From assembly GCA_021613375.1 (NCBI GenBank), contig CM038716.1, forward strand, positions 10,086,766 to 10,150,765: a DNA stretch of 64,000 bases. Reading direction: 5' to 3'. This DNA comes from Megaleporinus macrocephalus. Lineage: Eukaryota > Chordata > Actinopteri > Characiformes > Anostomidae. The position numbers were made by a program, and so were the translations under genes. Position 1 is the stretch's first letter. Every line of letters begins with the position of its first letter. Shown here one piece after another: positions 1,410 through 56,152 of the stretch. The notes under the pieces were generated by a model that was not told the DNA's origin, searched no databases, and saw nothing but the letters and a program-made list of their open reading frames with translations.

Positions 1410-4120
1410 GAGAGATGGATAGACGGGCGAGTCGGCTTTCCCCTGTGGGGGTTTCTCCATGCTCGATGACCATGGCTCGTGTTGTAGCAACAGGCCATAG
1501 CAACAAAGCCCCGGAGACGGCGGCCACATTAAGGCTGACCTCGGATCAGCCCGACTCCATGAACCCCCATTACGATCCGTTAAAGAAAACTGGCTTCGAA
1601 TCAGTCATCGCTTCTCCTCACCCCATTATGCCGAGGTCAAACACAGCCTCCAAAATCCACTTCACACTGAGTCCACACGGCCGCGCTCTGAGTAAGCACT
1701 CCGCAGAAACTTCATTAGTAACACCTTCCAGCTCCGCCGGCCGCTGTGCATCCCGAGCAGGGGCGTACGTTTAGGAGAAAGGACTGAAAAAAAAATTCCA
1801 AAGAAATATATATTTGGGTGATTCTTCAATTGCGGGCTCTTTTGTAATTTTTAGTTTTAAAGTAATGCATTTCACTAGAATTCCATTATAAACTCATACT
1901 GTTAGACTTAATTCTATTTAATTTCTATATAATTTTATAGAAGATACTGATGGTGAAATTGAAAACCAGTCATTACCATCAACAAACGTCATTACCATCT
2001 CAACAGGTTGTGTGTTGGTAATGACGTGTTGCGGTAATGACAATTTTCACTTAAAAATAAAAAAAAGCTATCTAGGCCGTGGATTTGCTAAAATTAGTTA
2101 ACAGCTAGTACAAGCAATACATAATAATATTGTAAAAAAACAATAATAAATATATTTAAGGATATATCTGAAGATCTACAGTTCCACCAAAGACAACCAA
2201 GGTACCACATGAAAGCTTAGAATCTCCACTTTTCGGTTGTTTTGTCATTTTTTCTTTATTGTCATTCAGAAAATAAATATTTTGTTCAAAAACGACCTTG
2301 TCCAGAGCGTTAGTATGACAAAATATTAGGTACACTACGAACATTTGTATTTTTCGTAATCTTTTGGCCAATCTGGACATATTATACATCAAACTAATGG
2401 GGAGACCCTCAGGATTACGATGGTGTAAGCTAGTATACTCTGTAATGTAGGAGTATTTAAATAAAAAAATAAAGAATAGCTTTTCAGAAAAGTGACGCCC
2501 CCTAGCGCCGCCACAACTTCCTCGTTCTGTGGCGCGTAATGGCTCTCAGCCGAGGGACCACCAAATGAACAACACGCCAGCCACATACCTCAGACTGTCA
2601 GCTTCAAAACCAGATCAAACTTGTGTTTTTCCAATAATCCGATCGTTAATAATATTCAATTTTGTGGAAGGAGTGCTCCGGAGATCCGACAGATCAGAAT
2701 AAAGAATTAGAATTGAAAAAATTATTAAAATATCTTCCACTCCGACTTCCGTGGTTTGGCGGATACCGTTGGAAAGCTCCGCCCTTCTTCTTTCCAAAAA
2801 CATGTCAATCAAGTCTGTGGACCAATCAGGTGCGGAGATATCTGAAGTAAAATTATATAGTAGAACAAATATATATAAATATATGAGAACCTTATAGACT
2901 AGATTTTATGAAGTAGAATAATAAACATTAAAACTATAGAGAGGAGAACAATCTTTGGAGTTTTACCAAACAAGTACAGATAAAGGCTAACCACCAGCTA
3001 ATATGTACAGCTTAAAGGGAACCCGGCTGGTAACACTTGTAAGTCTTAATATGATGTAATGACTCTAAATTATTAAAAGGTTGTTAAAAATCACTAAAAG
3101 TATCAGATTTATTAGATTTTGTGTAAAATCCGCTGCACGTGGGTCTCCATTGTTGTATCTACTGATGTGATCAGCGAGTAGTGACGTCAAATGGTTGCAG
3201 TAACCGGTCGTCACGCTTGAGCACAGCTAGCTACTAAACATGCTACTGTTCAGTCTTTACAGTTTGAACTAGAACTCAACATTTCTGACATCAGCGGTGA
3301 CATCACACACCACGTTAGTGTAAATGGTGAACAGAGAGGGTGGAGGAGAGAGTGACACAGTGCTGGAGTTGTTGTGAAGCTGTGTGTTGGTGTTGACGGA
3401 GAAGGAGAGTGTCTGTTAAAGGAGCTCCGCTTTCTAGCAGGAAACATTCACACTCAGTAAACAGCTCGATACACTGAACGGGAGTGTCTCTGAGCTTCAC
3501 ACTCCTTTATTAGTGAAGTAGTATGTTCACTACTAAGACTGGACTTTCACCTTCAGGATCCACAAACGAGGAGAAGCAGCTGACGCTAACGCTAAACGTT
3601 CTCAGGAGAGAGTCCAGCGCATGTTCACGTTCACGGTTCTTCTCGCGGTTCTCCAGAATCTGGAGCTTCTGGACTTCCTGTGTGGGGAAACTGTGGCACT
3701 GCATTGTGTTTTAGTCTACGCTTAAAACCAACAGCCTCCGTCAAGTCTCTCACCAGTGGTGGTCTACTGAACCACTCAAACTCATCCAGACTGAAGTGAG
3801 GAGAGCAGAGCGGGGGTCTTTGGGTAGCTGTGTTGGTCCACACGCTGCTTCACTAACTATTCTCCTTGTTTATGTTTGTGAAGCTGTTTAGACTAATATC
3901 AGTCTTCACACTGCCTTTCACTGAAACAACATCAACAACACAATGTACATGGTTTTCTTTAAGCTAGGTTAGTAACTAACACTCACTCCTTCACACCACA
4001 GTCCAGTTCAGACCTGAAACCATCTGACCTCATCTACCCAGCAGGCATTGTGTGTCAGTAATAATGGCTGCGTCCGTATGTTAAATATTTAGAATAAAAG
4101 AGTTAATTTATAAATAAATC
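1410..4120. other. flank with no recognisable gene
   Basis: Mixed AT-rich sequence lying outside the duplicated units. Several short open frames occur, the longest about 130 codons from 1376, but none shows a known domain, paired splice signals or a second copy in the window. Around 1965-2040, short CATTACC words are followed by inverted GGTAATG words, which suggests an old inverted-repeat element. I see no RNA gene here. Confidence 0.5.
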
Positions 4121-4123
4121 TGC

Positions 4124-4180
4124 TAGGACGAACAACACCATTCTGGCTAACAGCTGCACACATTGTGATGGTGCCACCCT
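4124..4180 (-). pseudogene. fragment of unit 0: IS630-like transposase remnant
   Basis: This short stretch matches about 39,095-39,152 in unit 2 and 54,720-54,778 in unit 3. On the minus strand it reads ITMCAAVSQNGVV, the same part of the dead DDE transposase that every unit carries. It is the left-most visible trace of the tandem duplication. Immediately to its right the sequence changes to a Tc1-like element, and unit-type sequence resumes at about 4,950. Confidence 0.7.
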
Positions 4181-4950
4181 GATGTGCACCTCAGCTCTCC
4201 TCTTTCCACCAGAACTGTCCGTCAGGAGCTCCACAGGATCAATGTACACGGCCGGACTGCTATAGCCAAACCTTTGGTCACTCGTGCCAAAGCCAAACGT
4301 CGGTTTCAATGGTGCAAGGAGTGCAAATCTTGGGCTGTGGACAATAAGAAACATGTATTGTTCTCTGATGATCCACCTTTACTGTTTTCCCCACATCCAG
4401 GAGAGTTACGGTGTGGAGAAGCCCCAAAGAAGCAGACCACCCAGACTGGTGCATGCCCAGAGTGAAGCATGGGGGTGGATCAGTGATGGTTTGGCCCAAT
4501 ACGTGTGCTAGATGGGCGTGTCACTGCCAAGGACTACCGAACCATTCTAGAGGACCATGTGCATCCAATGGTTCTAACATTGTATCCTGAAGGTGGTGCC
4601 GTGTATCAGGATGACAATGCACCAATACACACAGCAGGACTGGAGAAAGATTGGTTTGATGAACATGAAAGTGAAGCTGAACATCTCCCACGGGCTGCAC
4701 AGTCACCAGATCTAAATATTATTGAGCCACTTTGGGGTGTTTTGGAGGAGCGAGTCAGGAAACGTTTTCCTCCACCAGCATCACGTAGTGACCTGAACAC
4801 TGTCCTGCAAGAAGAATGGCTTAAAATGCCTCTGACCACTGTGCAGGACTTGTATATGTCATTCCCAAGACCAACTGATGGCCCTACACCATACTAATCA
4901 ATTATTGTGGTCTAAAACCAGGTGTTTCAGTTTCACTGTCCAACCCCTGT
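4181..4950 (+). mobile_element. truncated Tc1/mariner-like element with D-36-E spacing
   Basis: The plus strand encodes the catalytic part of a Tc1-like transposase. The first Asp region (VLFSDDP) near 4,360 lies in a frame broken by indels and stops. From 4505 an open frame of 130 codons carries YQDDNAPIHTA and SPDLNIIEPLW, with 36 residues between the second Asp and the Glu. Classic Tc1 has 34, and 36 fits the DD36E group. The right end (about 4,918-4,950) carries a TIR-like sequence, GTTTCACTGTCCAACCCCTG. No left TIR or N-terminal DNA-binding region is seen, so the copy is 5'-truncated and dead. It replaces about 1.5 kb of unit 0. Confidence 0.8.
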
Positions 4951-5034: not shown

Positions 5035-6030
5035 ACTGTATTACACTAATAAAGCCTGTAGACTCTCAGTAGATCATTCAGGAACATACCTGAACACTGT
5101 ATTACACTAATAAAGCCTGTAGACTCTCAGTAGATCATTCAGGAACATACCTGAACACTGTATTACACTAATAAAGCCTGTACACTCTCAGCAGATCATT
5201 CAGTAACATACCTGAACACTGTATTACACTAATAAAGCCTGTAGACTCTCAGCAGATCATTCAGTAACATACCTGAACACTGTATTACACTAATAAAGAC
5301 TGTAGAGTCTCAGCAGATCATTCAGTAACATACCTGAACACTGTATTATACTAATAAAGACTGTAGAGTCTCAGCAGATCATTCAGTAACATACCTGAAC
5401 ACTGTATTACACTAATAAAGCCTGTAGACTCTCAGCAGATCATTCAGTAACATACCTGAACACTGTATTACACTAATAAAGCCTGTAGACTCTCAGCAGA
5501 TCATTCAGTAACATACCTGAACACTGTATTACACTAATAAAGACTGTAGACTCTCAGCAGATCATTCAGTAACATACCTGAACACTGTATTACACTAATA
5601 AAGACTGTAGACTCTCAGCAGATCATTCAGTAACATACCTGAACACTGTATTACACTAATAAAGCCTGTAGACTCTCAGCAGATCATTCAGTAACATACC
5701 TGAACACTGTATTACACTAATAAAGCCTAGAGACCCTCAGCAGATCATTCAGTAAAATACCTGAACACTGTATTACACTAATAAAGCCTGTAGACTCTCA
5801 GCAGCTCATTCATTAACATACCTGAACACTGTATTACACTAATAAAGCCTGTGGACTCTCAGCAGATCATTCAGTAACATACCTGAACACTGTATTACAC
5901 TAATAAAGCCTGTAGACTCTCAGCAGATCATTCAGTAACATACCTGAACACTGTATTACACTAATAAAGCCTGTAGACTCTCAGCAGATCATTCAGTAAC
6001 ATACCTGAACACTGTATTACACTAATAAAT
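5035..6030. repeat. 61-bp satellite, unit 1
   Basis: About 16 tandem copies of a 61-bp unit containing AACACTGTATTACACTAATA. Every unit carries a plus-strand AATAAA hexamer. The same satellite opens units 2, 3 and 4 with far fewer copies (about 6, 8 and 5), so this array is the most expanded. Confidence 0.95.
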
Positions 6031-6119
6031 AATGAAGAGTAGTAGCATATTTTAATTTTTTTGTATTATTTTTATATTTGCCGATGTGTGAGTTTGGGGA
6101 GCGAGGGTTAGGGTGAGTT

Positions 6120-6510: not shown

Positions 6511-9500
6511 TTATAGCCATCTGTTGTCATGCTGACACCAGTCCGGTCTCTTACGTCCTCTGCCTCCACCACGCCTCCCTCTTCCTCCAAAGCCGCCTCT
6601 CTCCCTTTGTGGAGGAGCGCATCCATCATTATGGCTGGGGCCGTGACTTCTCTCAGTGGCCTCCTCCTCCCACTGGTGTCTCGGCACCCTAGGTCGTCCC
6701 TGGTGCCGATGCGTCCACTGAACTTCGGACTGCTGCCTGGGTCGATGATGGCAGTCAGTCCGTGGACGAGGAGGAGGCTGCACCCCAGGAGAGTCTCTGT
6801 GAGCTACAAATGCAGATACACTCATGTTAGTATCAGTGAGTAGTTACTGTAGAAGAACTTTCGGTTTCCTGAAGAACGTTTTAATAGAAGCTTCTATGTA
6901 AAACAGATGTGTGAGCATGAAGAACCTTGTAGAAGCTCCACTACCAGTGAAAGTTTATCTCTAGAGCCGTATATCCAACCCAAGATCTGAAAAAGTACCT
7001 TTTTTTGTAAGAGTGTATGTTCATGTAAACAGAATCTGAGATCTGTTTTCTTTACTCACCCCGAGATGACTGAGGTGGCTGACGTGGTGGAGGTGGCTGA
7101 GGACGTTGAGGCAGCTGACGTGGTTGACGCTGCTGACGTTGCTGAGGCGTCTGAGGCGTCTCAGGTGGGTAACGCGGCTGACGTGGCTGAGGTGGCTGAG
7201 GTGGATGGCGCGGATGACGTGGCTTAGATGGCTGAATTTTAGGTGCCATCCTCTTCATTTCATCCATGGTGGACTCAGCTGATGCTCGACCTTCCTCCAC
7301 CTCCTCGGTCTGGTCTCGTGCTGTAACATGAAGAAACATCAACAGCTGTCCAGATCCATCACTGTGGTTGGACCTGACTCTGGTGTTTGCGTTGCTCGCA
7401 TACAAACTGGACTCAGAGTCACCTCGTAAAACGAGCCCGAGCAGAATCAGTATGAGTTCAGATGAATATTAATAACTAACTAATAAATCCTGATGAAACA
7501 TTAGCAGTTCTTTAGACATTCTCAGTTATTAAGATGATGATCATCAAGCTACTAGGTTCTTCTACTCACCCAGACATCCGCAGTAATATGTACGGGCGTA
7601 GTCCAGCAGAGGCGCCAGCACCTCCACAATGTCCCGGTAATCAGGCGCCGAGGACATCAAGCACAGGAAGTCGTGGACTGATTTAATAGAAATAAATATT
7701 AGCAGTTGTTCAGCTGAGTCTTCATCACAGAACCTAGTAAAGATGGTGATCCTGATATTGAAGACTTGAGGATCAGCTGATCTGATGTTACTACTTCTTA
7801 AGCTCTAAAGATGATCAGCTCTTTCTGCTCATATCAGTCTGAGACCACCAGCTGTTACCACATGGGCTCTATCTTTAGTTTCTGGTGCTCATTAGCTTTA
7901 CTCACTGAGATGCTGATCCCTCCCGGTGACGAGCTCCTCCAGGATGCTATCCAGGGCCTGGGCGATGATGTCGGCCCTGGACTCGTTGTTGTTCACTAGT
8001 TCATTTGGAAAGAATGAATGAATACAGGTTCATATTAACATTAAACATGATTCCTACTTTTACCTGCATGTTATGATGATGACTCACCTGGAGGTTCTCT
8101 GTGCACCTTACGGAGGTACATCAGGGCGTTAGCAGCCAGCTGGACCAACAGCCCTGTCAGCATCTCATCCACTGGATTCACATTGATACACACTGTCAGT
8201 TCTCCAGCTGCATCGTTTTCACTCTTCATATATTTGCACTGAGCGTTTCCGGTACTTACCGAGCTGTGTGTACAGAGTGTCCAGGTGAGGGCAGAAGATG
8301 TCACGCAGGGCCTCCACCTCTGCATCCACCCCCACCTGTAGATCAGTTCCTGGTTCTGAAAGGATCAGCAGATGTTGAGTCATATTATGGTGGGTTCTGA
8401 TCATCAAGTCACATCACTAAATGCTACCTGACTGAGTTTGAGTGGTCATCATCAACTGATATAGTTCTATCTGCTGGAATGGACCAACGCCAGCCTAGTC
8501 TATTCTGCTGCCCTTGTGTCAGAGAAGGTTCTGGGTTCTGTTACTCACCCAGAGTCATGCTGGTGAATCCTCGGATGCTGTCCAGATGATGTGTTAACAG
8601 CACTCCGGCATCAGCAAACTCAGGAACTGTTTGCATCACCGACAGCACCTTGTTAACTGATTCAATAGAAATAAACATCAGCAGATGTTCAGCTGCTACA
8701 TCATCACAGAACCTGGTGAAGATGCTGATCCTGATATTGAATCTCTGAGTATCAGCAGATCTGATATTTACTGACCCAGCCAACATGTTCATGTGGACCC
8801 CACATCAGTTAAAGACGGGCTGCCGATTGGCTCCACTTGGGGCAACCTGGTAGGGGCCCACAGAGATTTGTCCATTGCCTTCATACGGGCCCTGTGTGTG
8901 TTTGTCAATGTGGACCAATAACTAGGGCCGATCCGGACTGCAAGATGGGCCCAAGTGAACAACCGACCATGTGAACAGTGCCATAACTGTGGGCCCCCAA
9001 CAGTAGCCTAAGTGGGACTCACAGCTGTAACCCAAACGGGGCAAAAAGTTATAACCCAGTGGGGCTCCATGTATCACCAATCATAAAGCCCCTACAAGCC
9101 CACGTGAAACCCATAAAGGCCAGATAAGAACCTTACGGGCCCCACATGGACATGTTGTCTGTGAAGTCTTTAGTATGATCTTTAATATTTAGTGTTTATG
9201 TGCTTTACTCACTCAGGTGCTGGTCAGGTGAGAATGCGAGTCTCTGCAGCAGCACAAGAACTACCTCGCAGGCGGCCTCGATCAGGGCGTTGGTGTTGTT
9301 CGCTGATGTTTGTAGAAGATATTCAGTGAGAGTGAGATGTTGAGAGATATTAAGATATTCATGTTTCTGCTTTTGTCTGAATGTAGTTTTTGTAGTGAGT
9401 TCTTCTTTTACTCACCCGGAGGGAACTTGAGGTTCTGCAGTTCAGATACCTGCATGTTCTCCAGCAGGTATCTGAATGCGTCTGCTGCAGAGATCACCCT

Positions 9501-12196
9501 GACGATGGTCATCATCTTCTGGTCGTCTTTCACATTAATAAACACTGTCAGTCGTCCAGCCGTGTTATTTTCATACTTGATATATTTCCACAGGTCATTT
9601 CCGTTACTTACCGAAGGACTGGACAGGGTGATCTACGTGGGAGGACACTGGGGTCATAGGAGTCCCTACCCCCGTGTCCTCGACCTCATCCACGACCGGA
9701 GCTCCTGAGTCAGATTCTAAAAAGATCAGCAGATGTTCAGTAACGTGATGGTCAGTTCTGATGATCCTTGTCAAGTCAGACAATAATGACATCACCAAAT
9801 CTTAACTAGTGCCTGATGGAGTTCAGGTGGTCTTCATTAACTTCATTTATTACATCAACAGAACTGGACTGTGTGCTGGAGTGGACCACCAGCAGCCGGT
9901 TTGTTCTGGTAATGTTCTCCAGTGCTGTACAATTCAGAGTTAGCATGATGCTAATAGTTTGTTCTGCTCACCCAGAGATGTGCTGGAGGTTGGAGGTTCC
10001 TCCAGCAGCGTTTCTCCTCTGGTCTCCTCCTCAGTGTGCTCGCAGGTCTCGGGATTCTGTTTGAACATCAGTAAATATCAACATCTGTCCAGCTGGGTCG
10101 TTATCACAATATCCAACGTTTGATTCTTTTACTCACCAAGATGCTGGTCCACCACTTCTCCTCCAGCAACCTCCCTCGGCAGGATCTCCAGGAGCTCACT
10201 GGTCCCAGGAGCTCTCTGTTCTCCTGCTTTAATATTCATATCAGAATGAATAACATCAGCATTTGTTCTGTTAATGTAGAGATACAATGATGTTCATCAT
10301 GATAACAGGTTCTCCTACTCACCCAGAGGGGTGCTAGAGGGTGGTCCAGCATCTTCAGACTGTAGCAGTTCAGGAGTCGTCTCGGTATTGACGCCTATTT
10401 AATTTAGAATTGAATCATTTAGACAGATTAGAGTTTATAATCAGTTAATCTCCTGTTTTTATTAAACATTAAATAATATTAATAAATAAATACATTCACC
10501 ACAACTAACACAGAGTAACCTTAACATTAACCCTACACTTAACCCTACCTAACATTAACATTAACCCTACACTTAACCTAACATTAACATTAACCCTACA
10601 CTTAACCCTACATAACCCTAACCCTACACTTAACCCTACCTAACATTAACAATAACCCTACACTTAACCCTACTTAACATAAACCCTACACCTAACCCTA
10701 CCTAACCCGAACATTAACCCTACACTTAACCCTACCTAACATTAACATTAACCCTACACTTAACCCTACCTAACATTAACATTAACCCTACACTTAACCC
10801 TACCTAACCCTAACCCTACAGTTAAACCTACCTAACATTAACATTAACCCTACACTTAACCCTACTTAACCCTAACCCTACACTTAAACCTACCTAAGAT
10901 TAACATTAACCCTACACTTAACCCTACCTAACATTAATATTAACCCTACACCTAACCCTACCTAACACTAACAATAACCCTACATTTAACCCTACCTAAC
11001 ATTAACATTAACCCTACACCTAACCCTACCTAACATTAACATTAACCCTACACTTAATCCTACCTAACATTAACATTAACCCTACACTTAACCCTACCTA
11101 ACATTAACATTAACCCTACACTTAACCCTACCTAACATTAACATTAACCCTACACTAAACCCTACCTAACCCTAACCCTACACCTAAACCTACCTAACAT
11201 TAACCCTAGACTTAACCCTACCTAACATTAACTTTAACCCTACACTTAAAACTACCTAACATTAACATTAATCCTACACTTAACCCTACCTAACATTAAC
11301 AATAACCCTACACTAAACCCTACCTAACCCTAACCCTACAATTAAACCTACCTAACATTAACCCTACACTTAACCCTACCTATCATTAATTTTAACCCTA
11401 CACTTAACCCTACCTAACATTAACATTAATCCTACACTTAACCCTACCTAACATTACATTAACCCTACACTTAACCCTACCTAACGTTAACATTAATCCT
11501 ACACTTAACCCTACCTAACATTAACCATAAACTTAAACCTACCTAACCTTAACCCTACACTTAACCCTACCTAACATTAACATTAACCCTAAACTTACCG
11601 CTACCTAACATGAACCCTAAACTTAACCCTGCCTAACATAAACATTAACCCTACACTTAACCCTACCTAACATTAACATTAACCCTACACTTAACCCTAC
11701 CTAACATTAACATTAACCCTACACTTAACCCTACCTAACATTAATATTAACCCTGCTCTGATTTGTCAGTTCATACACTCTGTTCTGATTGGCCGACCAC
11801 CAGAGTTCTTAAAATTGCTTAAGCCCCCCCTACACTAAAGTAAAGAGTATCCAGCGCTGTACTCTGATTTATTCAGTACGTACTGAGAATCACTGACTTG
11901 TTCAGTAACTACTGTTAATTCTAGTGACGTCGACTCATCTACTCACTCAGAAGCTGCTCAGTCTCTGTGCTGATGTCCACCGGCTCTGTCTCGGCTTCCT
12001 CCATCAGCACAGTCACGCTCTCCTGTAGTGGAGTCTCCCTCTCCTCCTCTCTCCTAGAGAAACTCCACTCTCTCTCTCTCCTCCTCCTCTTTCCTTTCTC
12101 TTTCTTCTCACTATGTTCTCCTTCCTTTCTGTGCTCCTCCTCCTCCTCACTCTCTCTATCTCCTCCTCCACAACAGCAAAACTTTCTCCAGCTCAT
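6511..12196 (-). CDS. modular RGG-tailed protein, gene copy 1 (frameshifted)
   Basis: I do not recognise this gene. Coding exons in transcript order: 12196-11947, 10394-10323, 10226-10137, 10056-9972, 9716-9612, 9526-9416, 9302-9213, 8656-8549, 8355-8260, 8171-8088, 7995-7906, 7677-7570, 7320-7060, 6803-6511. All have GT-AG borders and all introns are phase 1. The start MSWRKFCCC has A at -3; an in-frame upstream Met also exists, but only MSWRK is shared by all copies. Frame-corrected length is about 613 residues. The N-terminal 83 residues are charged (EEEEE, then KKEKGKRRRRERE). Exons 2-12 are short helical-looking modules. Exon 13 is Pro/Gln/Arg-rich and exon 14 ends in an RGG-like tail. 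Exon 4 has 85 bases instead of 84, with an extra C near 10,050. That shifts the frame to an early TGA, so the copy is broken unless exon 4 is skipped. Confidence 0.75.
8777..9161. mobile_element. MITE in intron 7 of gene copy 1
   Basis: A GGGCCC-rich non-coding element of about 385 bp with imperfect terminal inverted repeats. The left end reads CAGCCAACATGTTCATGTGG, and the right end is the near-perfect reverse complement. It lies between exons 7 and 8. The same element sits at the same site in all four copies, so it inserted before the unit was duplicated. The family was not identified. Confidence 0.75.
10500..11755. repeat. 34-bp telomere-like minisatellite in intron 1, copy 1
   Basis: A long array of degenerate units such as CCTACACTTAACCCTACCTA followed by ACATTAACATTAAC, about 34 bp. 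The TAACCCTA words resemble vertebrate telomeric repeat but are interrupted by TACCTAACATTAA spacers. It fills most of the intron between exons 1 and 2. The array is about 1.25 kb here, about 0.16 kb in copy 2 and about 1.2 kb in copy 3. Confidence 0.9.
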
Positions 12197-22181: not shown

Positions 22182-25100
22182 TTATAGCCATCTGTTGTCA
22201 TGCTGACACCAGTCCGGTCTCTTACGTCCTCTGCCTCCACCACGCCTCCCTCTTCCTCCAAAGCCGCCTCTCTCCCTTTGTGGAGGAGCGCATCCATCAT
22301 TATGGCTGGGGCCGTGACTTCTCTCAGTGGCCTCCTCCTCCCACTGGTGTCTCGGCACCCTAGGTCGTCCCTGGTGCTGATGCGTCCACTGAACTTCGGA
22401 CTGCTGCCTGAGTCGATGATGGCAGTCAGTCCGTGGACGAGGAGGAGGCTGCACCCCAGGAGAGTCTCTGTGAGCTACAAATGCAGATACACTCATGTTA
22501 GTATCAGTGAGTAGTTACTGTAGAAGAACTTTTGGTTTCCTGAAGAAAGTTTTAATAGAAGCTTCTATGTAAAACAGATGTGTGAGCATGAAGAACCTTG
22601 TAGAAGCTCCACTACCAGTGAAAGTTTAACTCTAGAGTCGTATATCCAACCCAAGATCTGAAGAAGTACCTTTTTTTGTAAGAGTGTATGTTCATGTAAA
22701 CAGAATCTGAGATCTGTTTTCTTTACTCACCCCGAGATGACTGAGGTGGCTGACGTGGTGGAGGTGGCTGAGGACATTGAGGCAGCTGACGTGGTTGACG
22801 CTGCTGACGTTGCTGAGGCGTCTGAGGTGGCTGACGCAGATGACGCAGATGACGTGGCTGAGGTGGCTGGCACAGATGACGTGGCTGAAGCTGCTGAGGT
22901 GGCTGAGGTGGATGGCGCGAATGACGTGGCTGAGGCGGCTGAATTTTAGGTGCCATCCTCTTCATTTCATCCATGGTGGACTCAGCCGAAGCTCCATCTT
23001 CATACACCTCCTCGGTCTGGTCTTGTGCTGTAACATGAAGAAACATCAACAGCTGTCGAGCCCGAGCAGAATCAGTATGAGTTCAGATGAATATTAATAA
23101 CTAACTAATAAATCCTGATGAAACATTAGCAGTTCTTTAGACATTCTCAGTTATTAAGATGATGATCATCAAGCTACTAGGTTCTTCTACTCACCCAGAC
23201 ATCCACAGTAATATGCCCTGGCGGAGTCCAGCAGGGGCGCCAGCACCTCCACAATGTCCCGGTAATCAGGCGCCGAGGACATCAAGCACAGGAAGTCGTG
23301 GACTGATTTAATAGAAATAAATATTAGCAGTTGTTCAGCTGAGTCTTCATCACAGAAGCTAGTAAAGATGGTGATACTGATATTGAGGACTTGAAGATCA
23401 GCTGATCTGATGTTACTACTTCTTAAGCTCTAAAGATGATCAGCTCTTTCTGCTCATATCAGTCTGAGACCACCAGCTGTTACCACATGGGCTCTATCTT
23501 TAGTTTCTGGTGCTCATTAGCTTTACTCACTGAGATGCTGATCCCTCCCGGTGACGAGCTCCTCCAGGATGCTATCCAGGGCCTGGGCGATGATGTCGGC
23601 CCTGGACTCGTTGTTGTTCACTAGTTCATTTAGAAAGAATGAATGAAAACAGGTTCATGTTAACATTAAACATGATTCCTACTTTTACCTGCATATTATT
23701 ATGATGACTCACCTGGAGGTTCTCTGTGCACCTTACGGAGGTACATCAGGGCGTTAGCAGCCAGCTGGACCAACAGCCCTGTCAGCATCTCATCCACTGG
23801 ATTCACATTGATACACACTGTCAGTTCTCCAGCTGCATCGTTTTCACTCTTCATATATTTGCACTGAGCGTTTCCGGTACTTACCGAGCTGTGTGTACAG
23901 CAGGTCCAGGTGAGGGCAGAAGATGTCACGCAGGGCCTCCACCTCTGCATCCACCCCCACCTGTACATCAGTTCCTGGTTCTGAAAGGATCAGCAGATGT
24001 TCAGTTATATTATGGTGGGTTCTGATCATCAAGTCACATCACCAAATGCTGCCTGACTGAGTTTGAGTGGTCATCATCAACTGATATAGTTCTATCTGCT
24101 GGAATGGACCAACGCCAGCCTTGTCTACTCTGCTGCCCTGGTGTCAGAGAAGGTTCTGGGTTCTGTTACTCACCCAGAGTCATGCTGGTGAATCCTCGGA
24201 TGCTGTCCAGATGATGTGTTAACAGCACCCCGGCATCAGCAAACTCAGGAACTGTTTGCATCACCGCCAGCACCTTGTTAACTGATTCAATAGAAATAAA
24301 CATCAGCAGATGTTCAGCTGCTACATCATCACAGAACCTGGTGAAGATGCTGATCCTGATATTGAAGCTCTGAGTATCAGCAGATCTGATATTTACTGAC
24401 CCAGCCAACATGTTCATGTGGACCCCACATCAGTTAAAGACGGGCTGCCGATTGGGTCCACTTGGGGCAACCTGGTAGGGGCCCACAGAGATTTGTCCAT
24501 TGCCTTCATATGGGCCCTGTGTGTGTTTGTCAATGTGGACCAATAACTAGGGCTGATCCGGACTGCAAGATGGGCCCAAGTGAACAACCGACCATGTGAA
24601 CAGTGCCATAATTGTGGGCCCCAAACAGTAGCCTAAGTGGGACTCACAACTGTAACCCAAACAGGGCAAAAAGTTATAACCCAGTGGGGCTCCATGTATC
24701 ACCAATCATAAAGCCCCTACAAGCCCACGTGAAACCCATACAGGCCAGATAAGAACCTTACGGGCCCCACATGGACATGTTGGCTGTGAAGTCTTTAGTA
24801 TCATCTTTAATATTTAGTGTTTATGTGCTTTACTCACTCAGGTGCTGGTCAGGTGAGAACGCGAGTCTCTGCAGCAGCACAAGAACTACCTCGCAGGCGG
24901 CCTCGATCAGGGCGTTGGTGTTGTTCGCTGATGTTTGTAGAAGATATTCAGTGAGAGTGAGATGTTGAGAGATATTAAGATATTCATGTTTCTGCTTTTG
25001 TCTAAATGTAGTTTTTGTAGTGAGTTCTTCTTTTACTCACCCGGAGGGAACTTGAGGTTCTGCAGTTCAGATACCTGCATGTTCTCCAGCAGGTATCTGA

Positions 25101-26673
25101 ATGCGTCTGCTGCAGAGATCACCCTGACGATGGTCATCATCTTCTGGTCGTCTTTCACATTAATAAACACTGTCAGTCGTCCAGCCGTGTTATTTTCATA
25201 CTTGATATATTTCCACAGGTCATTTCCGTTACTTACCGAAGGACTGGACAGGGTGATCTACGTGGGAGGACACTGGGGTCATAAGAGTCTCTACCCCCGT
25301 GTCCTCGACCTCATCCACGACCGGAGCTCCTGAGTCAGATTCTAAGAAGATCAGCAGATGTTCAGTAACGTTATGATCAGTTCTGATGATCCTTGTCAAG
25401 TCAGAAAATGATGACATCACCAAATCTTAACTAGTGTCTGTTGGAGTTCAGGTGGTCTTCATTAACTTCATTTATTACATCAACAGAACTGGACTGTGTG
25501 CTGGAGTGGACCACCAGCAGCCGGTTTGTTCTGGTAATGTTCTACAGTGCTGTATAATTCAGAGTTAGCATGATGCTAATAATTTGTTTTGCTCACCCAG
25601 AGATGTGCTGGAGGTTGGAGGTTCCTCCAGCAGAGTTTCTCCTCTGGTCTCCTCCTCAGTGTGCTCGCAGGTCTGGGCTTCTGTTTGAACATCAGTAAAT
25701 ATCAACATCTGTCCAGCTCGGTCGTTATCACAATATCCAACGTTTGATTCTTTTACTCACCAAGATGCTGGTCCACCACTTCTCCTCCAGCAATCTCCCT
25801 CGGCAGGATCTCCAGGAGCTCACTGGTCCCAGGAGCTCTCTGTTCTCCTGCTTTAATATTCATATCAGAATGAATAATATCAGCATTTGTTCTGTTAAGG
25901 TAGAGATACAATGATGTTCATCATGATAACAGGTTCTCCTACTCACCCAGAGGGGTGCTAGAGGGTGGTCCAGCATCTTCAGACTGTAGCAGTTCAGGAG
26001 TCGTCTCGGTATTGACGCCTATTTAATTTAGAATTGAATCATTTAGACAGATTAGAGTTTATAATCAGTTAAACTCCTGTTTTAATTAAACATTAAATTA
26101 TATTAATAAATAAAGTACATAAACCACAACTAACACAGAGTAACCTTAACATTAACCCTACACTAAACACTACCTAACATTAACATTAACCCTACACTTA
26201 ACCCTACCTAACATTAACATTAACCCTACACTTAACCTAACATTAACATTAACCCTAAATTTAACCCTACCTAACATTAATACTAAACTTAACAATAACA
26301 TTAACCCTACACTAAAGTAAAGTGTATCCAGCGCTGTACTCTGATTTATTCAGTACGTACTGAGAATCACTGACTTGTTCAGTAACTACTGTTAATTCTA
26401 GTGACGTCGACTCATCTACTCACTCAGAAGCTGCTCAGTCTCTGTGCTGATGTCCACCGGCTCTGTCTCGGCTTCCTCCATCAGCACAGTCACGCTCTCC
26501 TGTAGTGGAGTCTCCCTCTCCTCCTCTTTCCTAGAGAAACTCCACTCTCTCTCTCTCCTCCTCCTCTTTCCTTTCTCTTTCTTCTCAATATGTTCTCCTT
26601 CCTTTCTGTGCTCCTCCTCCTCCTCACTCTCTCTATCTCCTCCTCCACAACAGCAAAACTTTCTCCAGCTCAT
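22182..26673 (-). CDS. modular RGG-tailed protein, gene copy 2 (intact)
   Basis: Coding exons in transcript order: 26673-26424, 26018-25947, 25850-25761, 25680-25597, 25341-25237, 25151-25041, 24927-24838, 24281-24174, 23980-23885, 23796-23713, 23620-23531, 23302-23195, 23027-22731, 22474-22182. All junctions are GT-AG and phase 1. The joined frame stays open to TAA and gives about 625 residues. Exon 4 has 84 bases, so the copy 1 frameshift is absent. Exon 13 is the long form (297 bases). Function is unknown. The N-terminal Cys triplet could be acylated, the Lys/Arg run could be a nuclear signal and the C-terminal GRGRRGGGRGRKR resembles an RGG RNA-binding tail; these are inferences. Intron 1 is short because its satellite is nearly lost. 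Confidence 0.78.
24402..24786. mobile_element. MITE in intron 7 of gene copy 2
   Basis: Orthologous copy of the element at 8,777. It is full length, with terminal inverted repeats CAGCCAACATGTTCATGTGG and its near complement. Confidence 0.75.
26140..26300. repeat. contracted 34-bp repeat in intron 1, copy 2
   Basis: Only about four or five degenerate units remain of the TAACCCTA/CTAACATTAACATTAAC array that exceeds 1 kb in copies 1 and 3. Both flanks match the other copies, so this is a contraction and not a different insertion site. Confidence 0.85.
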
Positions 26674-27598: not shown

Positions 27599-28538
27599 TT
27601 AAATGGATGCGAATTTCTCGTGTGCTAGCCTGAGATCATTGGTTTGAGAACGGATGTAAGTATGATAAGCTTGGGAGGACCAACGTCCGAGGATTTGGAT
27701 GGTGTGGTCCGGGAGTCCTTGACGGGAAGCAGAGGAGGCTGCGCCGATTCTGAATGAGTGGCCTGAGAAAAGCTCTGGAGGATAACCACTGAGAGAGAGG
27801 ATGTGCCGGAGGTGTGTGTGGAACCAGTGGCGAGATATGACTGAACCTGATTCTGTGATGAACAGAGGGTCTGTTGGTCGAGCGTTCTGGGATTGCCTCG
27901 TGTTGAGGTGGCGGACTAGAGGTTCGTAAGGACTAAGTGGAGATTTTAATTTGAAGAGGTAAAGAAGGGTGTTTTTGCCTAGTTGATCGGTTTTGCTTCG
28001 TTTGATGTTGAATGTCAAGGTATTTGCATTGAGGACGGAGAGGTCTGACATGAGTGGGTAAATGGAGGTGTTGGATGAGGTTGAAAGCGATGTGAATTCC
28101 GAACACCTGAGAAAGCCAAAGAAGGCCAAGAGGAAATTGGCTTCGAGTGTGGAAGAAATGGTGTTGGAGTAGTGTCCTGAGCGGAGTGTCTGTAGGCAGT
28201 GTAGTAAAATATCTGAGGTGATAGGTGAGCGTTGGGGTGGAAGGCGGGGCTCTGCTTTCTGCTTTCTCCCCTTTGAGGAGGAGAGAGATCTGGGAATGGT
28301 TTGATGAGGAGTGAGGTGAACCGGTTATTAGTTTCGTGAAGAAATTTATTGCTGCCAGATAGACTCTTAAGGTTGAGGAACGGACTGAGTGGTGAGTGTT
28401 AGCTGATGTGAGGAATGCAATAGTTATGGAGAGGTCATTTGAAGGAAAGGCTATATTGTGCTGGGAGTGGAAATTTTGAAATAATTTCCAGCTTGACCAG
28501 TAAGTAGAGAGTGTTTGAGGGGAGACTGCTGACAGCAT
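27599..28538 (-). pseudogene. tyrosine recombinase of the DIRS-type element
   Basis: Two overlapping frames (28538-27933 and 28129-27599) together cover the recombinase, so one frameshift lies near 28,000-28,130. The C-terminal part shows FLRCSEF (first Arg region), HSFRIGAASSASRQG (His-x-x-Arg) and WSSQAYHTYIRS with the candidate nucleophile Tyr. This is the family that integrates a circular intermediate by strand exchange instead of by a DDE integrase. The catalytic residues appear present, but the reading frame is not continuous. Confidence 0.75.
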
Positions 28539-28567
28539 GGTGTCCTGGGCTTGGAGAATTAACTGTT

Positions 28568-29225
28568 TTAGATGCAGGTTGGGTGGTAAGTCTTTTCCGA
28601 ATATGGAGGTACTGGTGTGGGCTGATGGTCCGCTTGCGGCGCTAAGGATCTGATTTTCTGAAATTGAAAACGGGACAGTGAATCAGCTATGGCGTTAGAA
28701 TGGCCTGGAATGTGAGTAGCTCTTAGAATAAATTGTTGAGTAACTGAGTGCCATGTAAGACGGCGAATGAAGGGCATGATAGGAAGCGATCTAGAACGAC
28801 CTTTATTTATTATGTGTACGGCTGCAGAATTGTCTGAATGAATTAAAATCACTTTCCCTGTCCACTCGTGCCCCCAAAGGAGCACAGCAACCACGATGGG
28901 ATAAAGTTCCCATAGCGCGGAAGAGTCATCCGGCCCGGTAGCTAGGGCGACAAATGGTGCTGGCCAGGGTGAAGCAAACCAACGGCCGTCGTAGTAGCCT
29001 CCGAACCCGACCGAGGGAGCTGCGTCGGTGAAAAGCTGTATGTTTGAGGGTTTGGAGATTTCGTCGTGGTAGAAAAAGGAGATGCCGTTCCAGCGGCGAA
29101 GCAGGATGAGCCAAAACTTGAGCTCGGCGATACAAGATTCATCGAGTTTGACTAGATCGTGCAATGCCTGGACTGAAGACGCAGTGCGGAGGAGGTGAGA
29201 AAGCGGCCCTGGAGCGGCCCTGAGG
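28568..29225 (-). pseudogene. RNase H domain of the DIRS-type element
   Basis: The minus-strand frame shows FTDAAPSVGFGGYY, ALWELYPIVVAV, IHSDNSAAVHIINKG and ADSLSR, giving the Asp-Glu-Asp-Asp set of retroelement RNase H. It follows the reverse transcriptase after a frame change near 29,220, where the word GCGGCCCTG is repeated, so an indel by slippage is likely. Confidence 0.75.
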
Positions 29226-30161
29226 GATGATGCGAATGGCGTAATTGAGATGGCCCAGAAGAGAAAGAAGCTGCTGTTTGTTACAGCTAGGTGCATCGAT
29301 GAAAGCAGAAAGTGCAAGAGTGATACGGTCGAGTTTGTCACGAGGGAGGGAGGCCTGGAAATGAACGGAGTCAAGGACGATCCCGAGGAATTCGAGAGTG
29401 GTCGAAGGGCCGACTGTTTTATCGGTAGAGATGGGGATTCCAAGGCGACTGAAGGTGCTGGTCAGTATGCTAAGGCCCTGGGCTGGTGGCGAAGAAGGAG
29501 GAGTTATAACCAAGAAATCGTCGAGAAGGTGGAGGACGAAAGGTAGTCTCCGTACATTAAGGAGAATCCAGCAGAGGGCTTCAGCGAAGGTGTCGAATAT
29601 TTTTGGACTACTTTTGCAGCCGAAAGTGAGACGAACTGCAAAGTAGAATTTTTTGTCCCATTGGACCCCGAAGAGATGCCAAAAATCGGGGTGAAGCGGG
29701 AGGACCTTAAAAGCAGAGACGATATCAGCCTTGGAGAGCCAAGCACCACGCCCGGCGAGCTTGATTAAGGTGATGGCGTGGTCTATGGTAGCGTAGGAGA
29801 GTGAAAAGCTGGAACTGGGAATGAGGCTGTTAATGGAGGGTTCCGTGGAACCGTGGGGTGCGGAGAGGTCGATGATAATGCGCTTCTTCCCGGAATACTT
29901 TCGAGTGGCGATGCCAATAGGGTTGATTCTGTATGAAGCGAAGGGAGGAGACGAGAAAGGGCCGATCATGAAACCACTTGAAACCTCCTTTACCAGGAGT
30001 GAGGTGACTATGTCGGGTTCAGACAGAGCAGAAAGGAGGTTGCGGCATGAAGGGGAAGAAGTGGGCAGAACGGCAAGGCCTGAGTAAAATCCAAAAACGA
30101 GGCTGTCCAAAAGGTAACGCACGAGAGATGGATCCGGGTGCCTGGCGAGGTCTGTGGCCAA
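29139..30161 (-). CDS. reverse transcriptase of the DIRS-type element
   Basis: A 340-codon minus-strand frame. It carries a template-binding segment (KKRIIIDLSAPHG), LSKADIVSAFKVLPLHP with the first catalytic Asp, FGCKSSPKIFDTFAEAL and the catalytic box LLDDFLVI with two Asp. GHLNYAIRIIPQGR marks the thumb. The frame then runs out of register into the RNase H. It copies RNA into DNA in the element's own cycle. Both catalytic motifs are kept, so decay is fairly recent. Confidence 0.8.
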   Translation of the reverse strand: MATDLARHPDPSLVRYLLDSLVFGFYSGLAVLPTSSPSCRNLLSALSEPDIVTSLLVKEVSSGFMIGPFSSPPFASYRINPIGIATRKYSGKKRIIIDLSAPHGSTEPSINSLIPSSSFSLSYATIDHAITLIKLAGRGAWLSKADIVSAFKVLPLHPDFWHLFGVQWDKKFYFAVRLTFGCKSSPKIFDTFAEALCWILLNVRRLPFVLHLLDDFLVITPPSSPPAQGLSILTSTFSRLGIPISTDKTVGPSTTLEFLGIVLDSVHFQASLPRDKLDRITLALSAFIDAPSCNKQQLLSLLGHLNYAIRIIPQGRSRAAFSPPPHCVFSPGIARSSQTR

Positions 30162-30205
30162 AGCGGGAACATTGATGGGGGTAGAAAGGAACCGGAGCAG
30201 TCAGC

Positions 30206-31371
30206 TGTTGCTGGATTTTGGGGGTCGTTGAGGGCAGCAAGAGCGAGCGTGTGCTTGGCTGCAGTAGGAGCAGACGTGGAGTAGCTTGCAGGATGAAGCA
30301 AAGCAACCGGCATGATTAAAGTTATTACAGATCATCTGGCCTTCCAGAAAGAACATGGGCCGCCCGTGGCTATCGTGCGCTCCGGAGGAGGACGGGCGAG
30401 TCGCGGGCTTCGCGGCTCTAGTGGAGGGAGCAGAAGGCCGACGAAAGGAGGTTGTCAAGGGAGCAGGAAGACGTGGGGTGGGAAGGACAGCCGCAAGCCA
30501 CGCAGGTGAGTGCGGCGCGGCCCGCGAAGATACGGCAATACAGCTCCAGGTCCAGGGCTCCCCAGTAAGTAGGGAGGTTCCACTGCTGAAGCCGTGCCGC
30601 GGCCTGTGCGGAAAACAACCTGTGGTATTCGTAAAAACCAGTTCCCCCAAAACGGACGGCCAAGTCCAGGACAATGGCCAAGTAATCGTCCAGTTCCTGG
30701 CGCCGAGACAGGAAGGCAGAGCACAAAACGTCGCGGAAGAGGGAGAACGCCAGTGCGAACTCTGGAACCGAGAGGGTTCTGGACAACGGAGGGCCGCGCG
30801 CTCTCATGGTCAGCGACATGTCACCCGCTTCAATGACACGAGGAGCAGGAGGACCAGGAGAAGGAAGCAGCAAAGAGGGGAGAGGGACGTCCGCACCTTG
30901 GAGAATGCGCTGGCGTAGGGAGGGCGAAACGAGAGGAGGGTTGAAGAGGCGAGCATTGGCCGGAGGGGGGGGCCAAGGGAGCCGTGGAGAGAGTGAAGGC
31001 AGGATCAGCAGAACCGACCGGAGGTGGAGGCGGAGGAGGAGGAGGCGCGGCAGCAGCGGGACCTGAAAAACAAGCAGCATTAGGCAATGAGGAGGACAGA
31101 GGGGCAGGGAGGTGAGAAGGGAAGGACGATTGGGGGAAGGGGAGGTGGGACGATTGGGGAAGGGGAGGTGGGACGATTGGGGGAAGCGGGGGTGGGACGA
31201 TTGGGGGAAAGGGGGAAGAGACTGAGAAAGGAGGGCAACATTGGCAGAAACTGTAGCGGGGAGAGAGGGAGACAAACGGTAGAAAACCCGAGAAACCGGC
31301 AACTGGGCAGGAAGCATCGGCACGGCGGATGCTGACTGTGATCTGAGGTGGGTGTGAGAAGAACAGCACAC
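30206..31371 (-). pseudogene. Gag-like region of the DIRS-type element
   Basis: Pro-rich minus-strand frames with shifts. The C-terminal part, about 30,206-30,370, carries a Cys/His cluster (ICNNFNHAGC, then HVCSYCSQAHARSC) of the kind that ends the first ORF in DIRS-type elements. The Pro-rich part includes a short plus-strand GGTGGGACGATTGGGG-type repeat at about 31,120-31,215. The first part runs beyond the element into host sequence and so is not a true start. Confidence 0.55.
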
Positions 31372-31663
31372 GAGTGATCATCACTGAGAGAGGATCTGTA
31401 TCTGGACCTGTTCAACTTCATCACTGAGAATGTTTGTTCACATAGTTACACTGTTAACCCCTAATTAGTTTGTGTGTAAAGAGTTTGTGTACTGATTGAT
31501 TAAAAACTAAAGTTTTATTTCATTACTTAAAATGTTTTAGTATCTTCTACTATTTTGAGAGAAGAACTGAGTACACTAATATTTTTAATTTGAACAAACT
31601 TCAAACATCAGGTTTTAGCTTGGACCACGCCCCTGTAGCACCTTGCCAGATTCTCATTGGTCA
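31344..31663. other. host sequence between two retroelements
   Basis: This block equals 48,296-48,616 in unit 3. It is AT-rich and has no gene. It ends at the word ATTGGTCA, where the L2 element's tail begins. Confidence 0.6.
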
Positions 31664-41741: not shown

Positions 41742-44700
41742 TTATAGCCATCTGTTGTCATGCTGACACCAGTCCGGTCTCTTACGTCCTCTGCCTCCAC
41801 CACGCCTCCCTCTTCCTCCAAAGCCGCCTCTCTCCCTTTGTGGAGGAGCGCATCCATCATTATGGCTGGGGCCGTGACTTCTCTCAGTGGCCTCCTCCTC
41901 CCACTGGTGTCTCGGCACCCTAGGTCGTCCCTGGTGCCGATGCGTCCACTGAACTTCGGACTGCTGCCTGGGTCGATGATGGCAGTCAGTCCGTGGACGA
42001 GGAGGAGGCTGCACCCCAGGAGAGTCTCTGTGAGCTACAAATGCAGATACACTCATGTTAGTATCAGTGAGTAGTTACTGTAGAAGAACTTTTGGTTTCC
42101 TGAAGAACGTTTTAATAGAAGCTTCTATGTAAAACAGATGTGTGAGCATGAAGAACCTTGTAGAAGCTCCACTACCAGTGAAAGTTTATCTCTAGAGTCG
42201 TATATCCAACGCAAGATCTGAAGAAGTACCTTTTTTTGTAAGAGTGTATGTTCATGTAAACAGAATCTGAGATCTGTTTTCTTTACTCACCCCGAGATGA
42301 CTGAGGTGGCTGACGTGGTGGAGGTGGCTGAGGACGTTGAGGCAGCTGACGTGGTTGACGCTGCTGACGTTGCTGAGGCGTCTGAGGTGGCTGACGCAGA
42401 TGACGCAGATGACGTGGCTGAGGTGGCTGAGGTGGCTGAGGTGGATGGCGCGAATGACGTGGCTTAGATGGCTGAATTTTAGGTGCCGTCCTCTTCATTT
42501 CATCCGTGCTGGACTCAGCCGAAGCTCCACCTTCCTCCACCTCCTCGGTCTGGTCTTGTGCTGTAACATGAAGAAACATCAACAGCTGTCCAGATCCATC
42601 ACTGTGGTTGGACCTGACTCTGGTGTTTGCGTTGCTCGCATACCAACTGGACTCAGAGTCACCTCGTAAAACGAGCCCGAGCAGAATCAGTATGAGTTCA
42701 GATGAATATTAATAACTAACTAATACATCCTGATGAAACATTAGCAGTTCTTTAGACACTCTCAGTTATTATGATGATGATCATCAAGCTACTAGGTTCT
42801 TCTACTCACCCAGACATCCACAGTAATATGCCCTGGCGGAGTCCAGCAGAGGCGCCAGCACCTCCACAATGTCCCGGTAATCAGGCGCCGAGGACATCAA
42901 GCACAGGAAGTCGTGGACTGATTTAATAGAAATAAATATTAGCAGTTGTTCAGCTGAGTCTTCATCACAGAACCTAGTAAAGATGTTGATACTGATATTG
43001 AAGACTTGAGGATCAGCTGATCTGATGTTACTACTTCTTAAGCTCTAAAGATGATCAGCTCTTTCTGCTTATATCAGTCTGAGATCACCAGCTGTTCCCA
43101 CATGGGCTCTATCTTTAGTTTCTGGTGCTCATTAGCTTTACTCACTGAGATGCTGATCCCTCCCGGTGACGAGCTCCTCCAGGATGCTATCCAGGGCCTG
43201 GGCGATGATGTCGGCCCTGGACTCGTTGTTGTTCACTAGTTCATTTAGAAAGAATGAATGAAAACAGGTTCATGTTAACATTAAACATGATTCCTACTTT
43301 TACCTGCATGTTATTATGATGACTCACCTGGAGGTTCTCTGTGCACCTTATGGAGGTACATCAGGGCGTTAGCAGCCAGCTGGACCAACAGCCCTGTCAG
43401 CATCTCATCCACTGGATTCACATTGATACACACTGTCAGTTCTCCAGCTGCATCGTTTTCACTCTTCATATATTTGCACTGAGCGTTTCCGGTACTTACC
43501 GAGCTGTGTGTACAGCGTGTCCAGGTGAGGGTAGAAGATGTCACGCAGGGCCTCCACCTCTGCATCCACCCCCACCTGTATCTCAGTTCCTGGTTCTGAA
43601 AGGATCAGCAGATGTTCAGTCATATTATGGTGCGTTCTGATCATCAAGTCACATCACCAAATGCTGCCTGATTGAGTTTGAGTGGTCATCATCAACTGAT
43701 ATAGTTCTATCTGCTGGAATGGACCAACGCCAGCCTAGTCTATTTTGCTGCCCTGGTGTCAGAGAAGGTTCTGGGTTCTGTTACTCACCCAGAGTCATGC
43801 TGGTGAATCCTCGGATGCTGTCCAGATGATGTGTTAACAGCACCCCGGCATCAGCAAACTCAGGAACCGTTCGCATCACCGCCAGCACCTTGTTAACTGA
43901 TTCAATAGAAATAAACATCAGCAGATGTTCAGCTGCTACATCATCACAGAACCTGGTGAAGATGCTGATCCTGATATTGAAGCTCTGAGTATCAGCAGAT
44001 CTGATATTTACTGACCCAGCCAACATGTTCATGTGGACCCCACATCAGTTAAAGACGGGCTGCCGATTGGGTCCACTTGGGGCAACCTGGTAGTAACTAG
44101 GGCCGATCCGGACTGCAAGATGGGCCCAAGTGAACAACCGACCATGTGAACAGTGCCATAACTGTGGGCCCCCAACAGTAGCCTAAGTGGGACTCACAAC
44201 TGTAACCCAAACGGGGCAAAAAGTTATAACCCAGTGGGGCTCCATGTATCACCAATCATAAAGCCCCTACAAGCCCACGTGAAACCCATACAGGCCAGAT
44301 AAGAACCATACGGGCCCCACATGGACATGTTGGCTGTGAAGCCTTTAGTATCATCTTTAATATTTAGTGTTTATGTGCTTTACTCACTTAGGTGCTGGTC
44401 AGGTGAGAATGTGAGTCTCTGCAGCAGCACAAGAACTACCTCGCAGGCGGCCTCGATCAGGGCGTTGGTGTTGTTCGCTGATGTTTGTAGAAGATATTCA
44501 GTGAGAGTGAGATGTTGAGAGATATTAAGATATTCATGTTTCTGCTTTTGTCTGAATGTAGTTTTTGTAGTGAGTTCTTCTTTTACTCACCCGGAGGGAA
44601 CTTGAGGTTCTGCAGTTCAGATACCTGCATGTTCTCCAGCAGGTATCTGAATGCGTCTGCTGCAGAGATCACCCTGACGATGGTCATCATCTTCTGGTCG

Positions 44701-56060: not shown

Positions 56061-56152
56061 GAGTAAAAGTGTGTTCAGAGACTCGTATGACTGTAAAGCA
56101 GAAAACTCGTAGAACTGATTAACACTAAATACACACTTTCTGCCCCAATGAC

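Follow-up and report, generated by a model that had tools for sequence, protein, structure and literature searches.

The stretch of DNA analysed here (the window) comprises 64,000 nucleotides (nt) of the Megaleporinus macrocephalus genome (GenBank assembly GCA_021613375.1, contig CM038716.1, positions 10,086,766 to 10,150,765 of the forward strand). Its minus strand carries, from 12196 to 6511, a gene of 14 exons, here called the study copy, which is one member of a dispersed family. Exons 2–12 form a series of modules, a d, a b c d, a b c d and a, each letter standing for one exon type. It is well supported that the middle of the gene goes back to a segment of genomic DNA, with the four short exons a, b, c and d and the introns belonging to them, that was duplicated in tandem, and that exon 12 opens a third block; exons 2–3 probably represent a module shortened to a d. 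The initial annotation had placed the duplicated region at 7570–10056. These bounds are correct: read along the minus strand, exon 4 begins at 10056 and exon 12 ends at 7570. In gene order, the features are:

Exon 1, 11947–12196, minus: start codon; MSWRKFCCCGGG..., with an acidic and a basic stretch; the other matched copies on chromosome C15 are 95–99% alike
Exon 2, 10323–10394, minus: type a, from exon profiles and intron and exon z scores
Exon 3, 10137–10223, minus: type d, ending in DQHL; 90 nt if an upstream AG is used
Exon 4, 9972–10056, minus: start of block A; type a from the introns and the likeness of exons 2 and 4, not from exons 4 and 8
Intron 4, 9717–9971, minus: final 50 nt pair with intron 8
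Exon 5, 9612–9716, minus: type b, by position and introns
Intron 5, 9527–9611, minus: pairs with intron 9 across almost its full length
Exon 6, 9416–9526, minus: type c; a long helix is predicted for the exon folded alone
Exon 7, 9213–9302, minus: type d, ending in DQHL
Intron 7, 8657–9212, minus: final 116 nt (8657–8772) pair with intron 11
Exon 8, 8549–8656, minus: type a, opening block B; diverges more between copies than any other of exons 4–12
Intron 8, 8356–8548, minus: final 50 nt pair with intron 4
Exon 9, 8260–8355, minus: type b, by position and introns
Intron 9, 8172–8259, minus: pairs with intron 5
Exon 10, 8088–8171, minus: type c, ending in PPG
Exon 11, 7906–7995, minus: type d, ending in DQHL, from exon profiles
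Intron 11, 7678–7905, minus: final 115 nt (7678–7792) pair with intron 7
Exon 12, 7570–7677, minus: type a, opening a third block that is incomplete; one helix is predicted for the exon folded alone
Exon 13, 7060–7320, minus: proline, glutamine and arginine repeats with a 9-nt period
Exon 14, 6511–6803, minus: stop codon and RGG-rich end

Intron 7 also holds, at about 8781–9155, an insertion-like element with short inverted ends of about 15 nt (seen by eye), which seems to be absent from family copy L019, judging by exon spacing.

Exons 2–13 can be read with the phase after the first codon base at both ends and with lengths divisible by three, apart from exon 4 of the study copy. In the 26 other readable copies the length of exon 4 is divisible by three, mostly 84 nt, whereas the study copy carries one base more (within 10016–10056) than most copies, so that its exon 4 of 85 nt is out of phase. 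Either this copy is broken or the assembly is wrong at the extra base. If a later acceptor of exon 4 that is in phase is used, the product has 599 residues.

Intron and exon evidence for the block duplication

A local alignment of exon 4 to intron 7 against exon 8 to intron 11 reached a score of 138, whereas none of 100 dinucleotide shuffles exceeded 31, so that the DNA-level check proposed in the initial annotation came out in favour of two related blocks. The score stems from the introns: introns 7 and 11 share 99/117 positions, introns 5 and 9 65/83 and introns 4 and 8 40/50. The first of these pairs accounts for the approximately 110 bases said to be shared by the introns adjoining exons 8 and 12, and the word GATCAGCAGATGTTCAGT, reported for both introns 4 and 8, is exact in intron 4 but has one mismatch in intron 8. 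Using family consensus sequences and simple shuffles, z scores of 42.5, 23 and 15.6 were obtained for the same three pairs, respectively. Furthermore, the 3′ end of intron 3 matches intron 11 (z 12.3) and intron 7 (z 8.7), the 5′ end of intron 2 matches intron 4 (z 5.9), and the first 36 nt of introns 2 and 12 are identical at 30/36 positions. Several out-of-register intron pairs also exceed z 4, among them introns 5 and 11 (5.7), 3 and 5 (5.2) and 3 and 9 (4.7), and scores below about 6 therefore have little weight. Of the expected exon pairs, exons 2 and 4 (z 4.6) alone exceed z 4 at the DNA level, a threshold also passed by exons 2 and 3, 3 and 4, and 3 and 12. The exon units recur in order and with matching intron phases.

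At the protein level, profiles of exons 2–12, built from up to 29 copies, were compared in all 55 pairs, the best 25 of which were listed. The three top pairs are exons 7 and 11 (probability 88), exons 8 and 12 (65) and exons 6 and 10 (50), followed by exons 3 and 11, 3 and 7, and 2 and 4 with probabilities of 8–11, the matches of exon 3 spanning four residues. The protein thus bears out two of the four pairs between blocks A and B as well as the pair between block B and the third block, and it is the introns that place exons 4, 5 and 9 within the module scheme. The introns and these three exon pairs independently give one identical one-to-one register.

Most of what the initial annotation had read from these exons holds. 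Exons 8 and 12 have the same length, 108 nt, and the same residue pattern, exon 12 restarts the series, exons 6 and 10 are alike, and exons 3, 7 and 11 all end in DQHL. A common length of 90 bases applies to exons 7 and 11, while exon 3 measures 87 nt with a CAG acceptor or 90 nt with the AAG just upstream (AAAGCAG). The correspondence of exons 4–7 to exons 8–11 stands for the introns and for two exon pairs, 7 with 11 and 6 with 10, but not for the proteins of exons 4 and 8 or of exons 5 and 9; the likeness claimed for the latter pair was not recovered. The suggestion that exons 2 and 3 form a shortened earlier module has fair support from the matches of introns 2 and 3 and from the profile pairs of exons 2 and 3 given above.

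Several observations count against the duplication as set out here. No protein likeness was found between exons 5 and 9, which rank 18th of the 55 profile pairs, or between exons 4 and 8, which are not among the best 25. Introns 6 and 10 are only weakly alike (z 5.9), not above some out-of-register pairs. Splice sites were placed from consensus, phase and conservation, and the acceptor of exon 11 is not AG at the matching position in 3 of 29 copies (L017, L028 and L035).

Alternatively, one mobile element might have inserted separately ahead of exon 8 and of exon 12 and so made the introns alike. Intron 7 does contain an insertion-like element, and repeats abound in the window. However, the shared piece lies between the inserted element and exon 8, and three intron pairs show the one-to-one register that the exons also have. 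In addition, a first look through the genome for the end of intron 7 gave 341 candidates, about two per marked family locus, and the best 40 of the 341 all lie on the family-bearing chromosomes C15, C7 and C24, although very common words may have been skipped, so that this search is not a full control. Independent insertion is accordingly held to be extremely unlikely.

The gene family and the age of the duplication

The genome contains 173 occurrences of a 35-nt pattern taken from the end of exon 4 (88 + 85, with at most three mismatches), compared to none of the reversed pattern; this number counts exon 4 marks and not genes read through. Exon matches lie in arrays on several chromosomes, with at least 240 matches from the 150 scored of 648 candidates. 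In total, 32 copies were mapped, 28 from elsewhere in the genome and four within the window. Besides the study copy, the latter are:

Second copy, 22182–26673, minus: all 14 exons
Third copy, 41742–47455, minus: all 14 exons
Fourth copy, 60628–63869, minus: exons 5–14 inside the window, the end being reckoned from the exon 14 match

Exons 5–12 are complete in 30 of the 32 mapped copies; L027 is without exons 2–6 and L032 without exons 9–10. The degraded copies L026, L029 and L032 were excluded from the profile, divergence, z-score, type, age and tree counts, L027 and L036 from most of these, and the short pieces L001–L008 altogether. Splice-site ends were trimmed and gap columns ignored.

The age of the duplication follows from comparing introns within and between genes. 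The mean distance of intron 7 to intron 11 is 0.250 within the same gene and 0.251 to other genes (n = 29); the corresponding values are 0.245 and 0.244 for introns 5 and 9 (n = 28) and 0.261 and 0.263 for introns 4 and 8 (n = 26). Being averaged over fixed slices, these values lie above the distances of the best local matches. As introns 7, 5 and 4 are no closer to the partner introns of their own gene, the blocks separated before the copies did, and the block duplication is older than the spread of the family. With own-gene and other-gene distances equal, there is also no sign of conversion between the blocks of one gene, and this reading was rejected. This goes beyond the initial annotation, as the duplication predates a family of 173 marked loci.

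A reading from ATG to stop is present in 14 of the 27 spliced copies (529–700 residues; in L016, L020 and L021 it is uncertain where exon 14 starts). The remaining 13 are the study copy, with 584 residues if exon 4 is omitted, and 12 copies whose exon 1 is missing or cut in the sequence piece. Exons 7–12 have lengths divisible by three and no stop in the 29 copies not set aside as degraded. These data bear on the view that the array consists of non-coding or dying repeats whose exon pattern is a relic. The frameshift in exon 4 of the study copy and the three degraded copies would fit this view. However, frames of exons 7–12 are kept in 29/32 copies, third codon positions change faster than first and second positions in 11/11 exons tested, and more than half of the spliced copies are fully open, which makes a dying family very unlikely.

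The modules have also changed within the family. A second pair of exons 2 and 3 in five copies (L018, L019, L020, L024 and L025) is a younger module duplication. Intron 3 is deleted, with exons 3 and 4 fused, in L016, L018, L021 and L026, and in L016 and L021 the frame continues through former intron 3 bases. An extra exon 8 in L016 proved spurious, and a processed, intronless copy suspected at C15:8354134 from a match across the junction of exons 11 and 12 was rejected, as this locus (L009) has spaced exons.

Divergence of introns and exons between copies

The oddity of the family is the divergence of its exons and not of its introns. With the copy at 26673 as the reference, 14 others were compared, nine of them on other chromosomes. 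In these nine, introns 2–12 are mostly 91–99% identical to the reference (lowest 85), and exons 5–12 69–97%: exon 8 69–81, exon 9 76–97, exon 7 82–93, exon 11 82–90, exon 12 83–92, exon 6 84–90, exon 5 85–93 and exon 10 89–96. Between C15 and the other copies, divergence in the region of exons 5–12 is 0.02–0.09 in the 60 intron bases flanking the exons, 0.07–0.09 in the outer ten exon bases and 0.15–0.21 in the exon interior. On a common tree, the rates are 0.28–0.80 for introns, 1.18 for the intron 7 element, 0.71–1.78 for exon positions 1 and 2 and 1.04–3.11 for third positions. With an 8% cut, 27 copies fall into 17 types for exon 8, 15 for exon 12, 12 each for exons 5 and 6, 11 for exon 11 and 9 for exon 9, but only 6–7 for exons 4, 7 and 10; the introns yield one to four types each, and intron 7 yields 7.

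This pattern depends on the depth of comparison. Differences at silent sites (pS), replacement sites (pN) and introns were compared for exons 5–12 in nine recent tandem copies and between these and 14 others. Intron 7, with its inserted element, was excluded from the intron totals here and in the tree tests, and kept or listed in the closest-pair and CpG comparisons. The recent copies have a pS of 0.034, a pN of 0.016 and an intron divergence of 0.021, and neither silent (p 0.11) nor replacement changes (p 0.10) differ significantly from introns. Against the 14 others, these values are 0.243, 0.138 and 0.053. The ratio of pS to intron divergence accordingly rises from 1.59 (confidence interval, CI, 0.90–2.58) in the recent copies to 4.55 (CI 3.69–5.63) between chromosomes. 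Furthermore, the exon data reject the intron tree in an approximately unbiased (AU) test (1.4e-9) and the intron data reject the exon tree (0.0027), the tree lengths being 1.68 for exons and 0.54 for introns.

Positive selection as the sole cause was rejected, since pN/pS over exons 5–12 is 0.57 (CI 0.46–0.70), below 1, and the recent copies are ordinary; among the closest pairs, exon 5 alone reached a pN/pS of 1.35. Moreover, selection on replacements alone cannot push silent sites past neutral change, so that either the introns have been evened out between clusters, or the exons have been exchanged or mutated more, or the introns are constrained. Since the ratio shifts with depth and the two trees disagree, the preferred reading is that copies exchanged sequence while their exon differences persisted.

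Faster mutation of the exons, for example at CpG sites, would be in line with the 56–78 CpG per kb of exons 5, 7, 11 and 12 compared to 0–38 in introns 2–11, and with a divergence of 0.063 at CpG-prone four-fold sites within C15 compared to 0.030 in introns. Against this, four-fold sites outside a CpG context, although few per exon, differ by 0.174 between C15 and the other chromosomes, where introns differ by 0.065. On this excess, CpG mutation was rejected as the sole cause; it accounts for part of the pattern. The most diverged exon, exon 8, has only 28 CpG per kb, and recent copies have no excess outside a CpG context (0.018 versus 0.031), nor a significant one overall. A faster exon mutation rate is thus quite improbable as the explanation.

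The more serious alternative to exchange is strong purifying selection on the introns. It would agree with the intron rates, about half that of the intron 7 element, with the steps in divergence at the exon edges, and with a 3′ flank that is 77–92% identical where alignable in copies off C15, somewhat below most introns. However, constraint predicts a ratio of pS to intron divergence that is independent of depth, contrary to the rise described above, and introns 1 and 13, which have no reason for special constraint, are 90–94% alike off C15. Constraint in place of gene conversion is therefore possible but rather unlikely.

Homogenisation of the introns is the weakest step of the explanation. 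The sharpness of the exon-edge steps tells against it, the slower change of introns than of the intron 7 element leaves room for constraint, and the AU test used fewer replicates than the program advises, with many nodes of the intron tree poorly supported.

Taken together, the best explanation, which we consider very probable as a whole, combines a tandem block duplication before the family spread, a helical-repeat product and homogenisation of introns between clusters. A four-exon segment, a b c d, with its introns was duplicated in tandem, and the family spread thereafter. As the internal exons begin and end one base into a codon, gain or loss of exons keeps the frame, and the structure could grow and shrink. 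Between clusters, recombination or gene conversion may keep the introns alike while exon differences stay, and the copies would in this way encode a diversified set of proteins. A bolder proposal is that this unnamed family of some 173 loci is a recognition repertoire of intracellular helical-repeat proteins, in which cross-chromosome conversion keeps introns and flanks uniform, selection keeps the exon sets different per cluster, and symmetric phase-1 exons let modules come or go; this we regard as speculative and rather unlikely.

The predicted product and known systems

In single-sequence structure predictions, exon 6 alone forms a helix at residues 2–22 and a short helix (predicted local distance difference test, pLDDT, 89), and exon 12 alone a helix at residues 14–31 (pLDDT 77). 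Together with the residue pattern, these models suggest an alpha-helical repeat as the core of the product, preceded by a putative charged, cysteine-containing front and probably followed by a proline, glutamine and RGG tail. An intracellular location is conceivable, as a guess from the start of the sequence. The 9-nt tandem repeat of exon 13 spans 7064–7244, and the computed length of this exon ranges from 117 to 528 nt among copies.

No Pfam family matched the study copy at E ≤ 10, and the best matches of seven copies (GIPC1_GH2 in two members, E 0.049; ELYS in one member, E 0.12) are not significant. Likewise, 229 residues gave no match among PDB sequences at E ≤ 10, and the best hit of a further search (E 0.35, cut-off 0.001) lies in the low-complexity tail. 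Searches of a large protein database gave no relative for residues 170–450 of the 599, and none for a seven-copy alignment among the best 7996 candidates by shared words; its vertebrate content is not stated, and these results are no proof of absence in other fishes. No paper tied to the family was found, and the portions of the Characiformes genome literature consulted do not name it.

Intron 1 holds a long, telomere-like array of CCTAACATTAACATTAACC units at 10510–11750, and a tandem array of approximately 60-nt units, judged by eye, lies downstream of the study copy at 5040–6050. Other candidate elements in the window are:

27599–31377, minus: presumably a tyrosine-recombinase retrotransposon, by resemblance
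56129–59141, plus: resembles what we take to be a copia-like element
4090–4900, plus: resembles what we take to be a Tc1-like transposase

Introns usually lose their likeness first. In this family, by contrast, the introns keep the record of the duplication while the exons have largely lost it, and they do so at two depths, both when the blocks of a single gene are compared and when copies from different chromosomes are. The pattern of introns that are more alike than silent sites has been argued mainly from toxin and major histocompatibility complex (MHC) genes. The 173 marked loci of a single assembly offer a direct test of gene conversion versus constraint for such introns, in a large coding family that has no name in the libraries searched.

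Genes such as albumin and ovomucoid were lengthened by tandem duplication of exon blocks, and the present family resembles them in its internal duplication of exons with introns and in its matching phases, although no sequence relation was found and the repeats predicted here are helical. In MHC genes, introns are evened by recombination while selected exons diverge. The likeness lies in introns that are more similar than the selected exons; however, the present case involves several exons in a large dispersed family with no sequence relation seen in Pfam. The coding regions of venom phospholipase A2 genes reportedly evolve at an accelerated rate and are more diverged than their introns, as is said to have been described by Nakashima in 1993 and 1995. 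The excess of coding over intron divergence is common to both, whereas here pN/pS is 0.57 and recent copies lack significant acceleration.

The last system for comparison is that of the viperid three-finger toxin genes with exon segment switching (ASSET), in which intron segments are >85% identical between members and parts of exons sharply different (PMC2474615). The ASSET genes have three exons in which segments are swapped, whereas the present family has 14 exons with differences spread through exons that still align, and nothing points to a toxin role. Segments swapped for unrelated sequence were not found in exons 4–12, which can be aligned with few differences in length and a divergence of 35% at most. 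Nevertheless, both are multigene families in which the introns have stayed alike and the exons have diverged.

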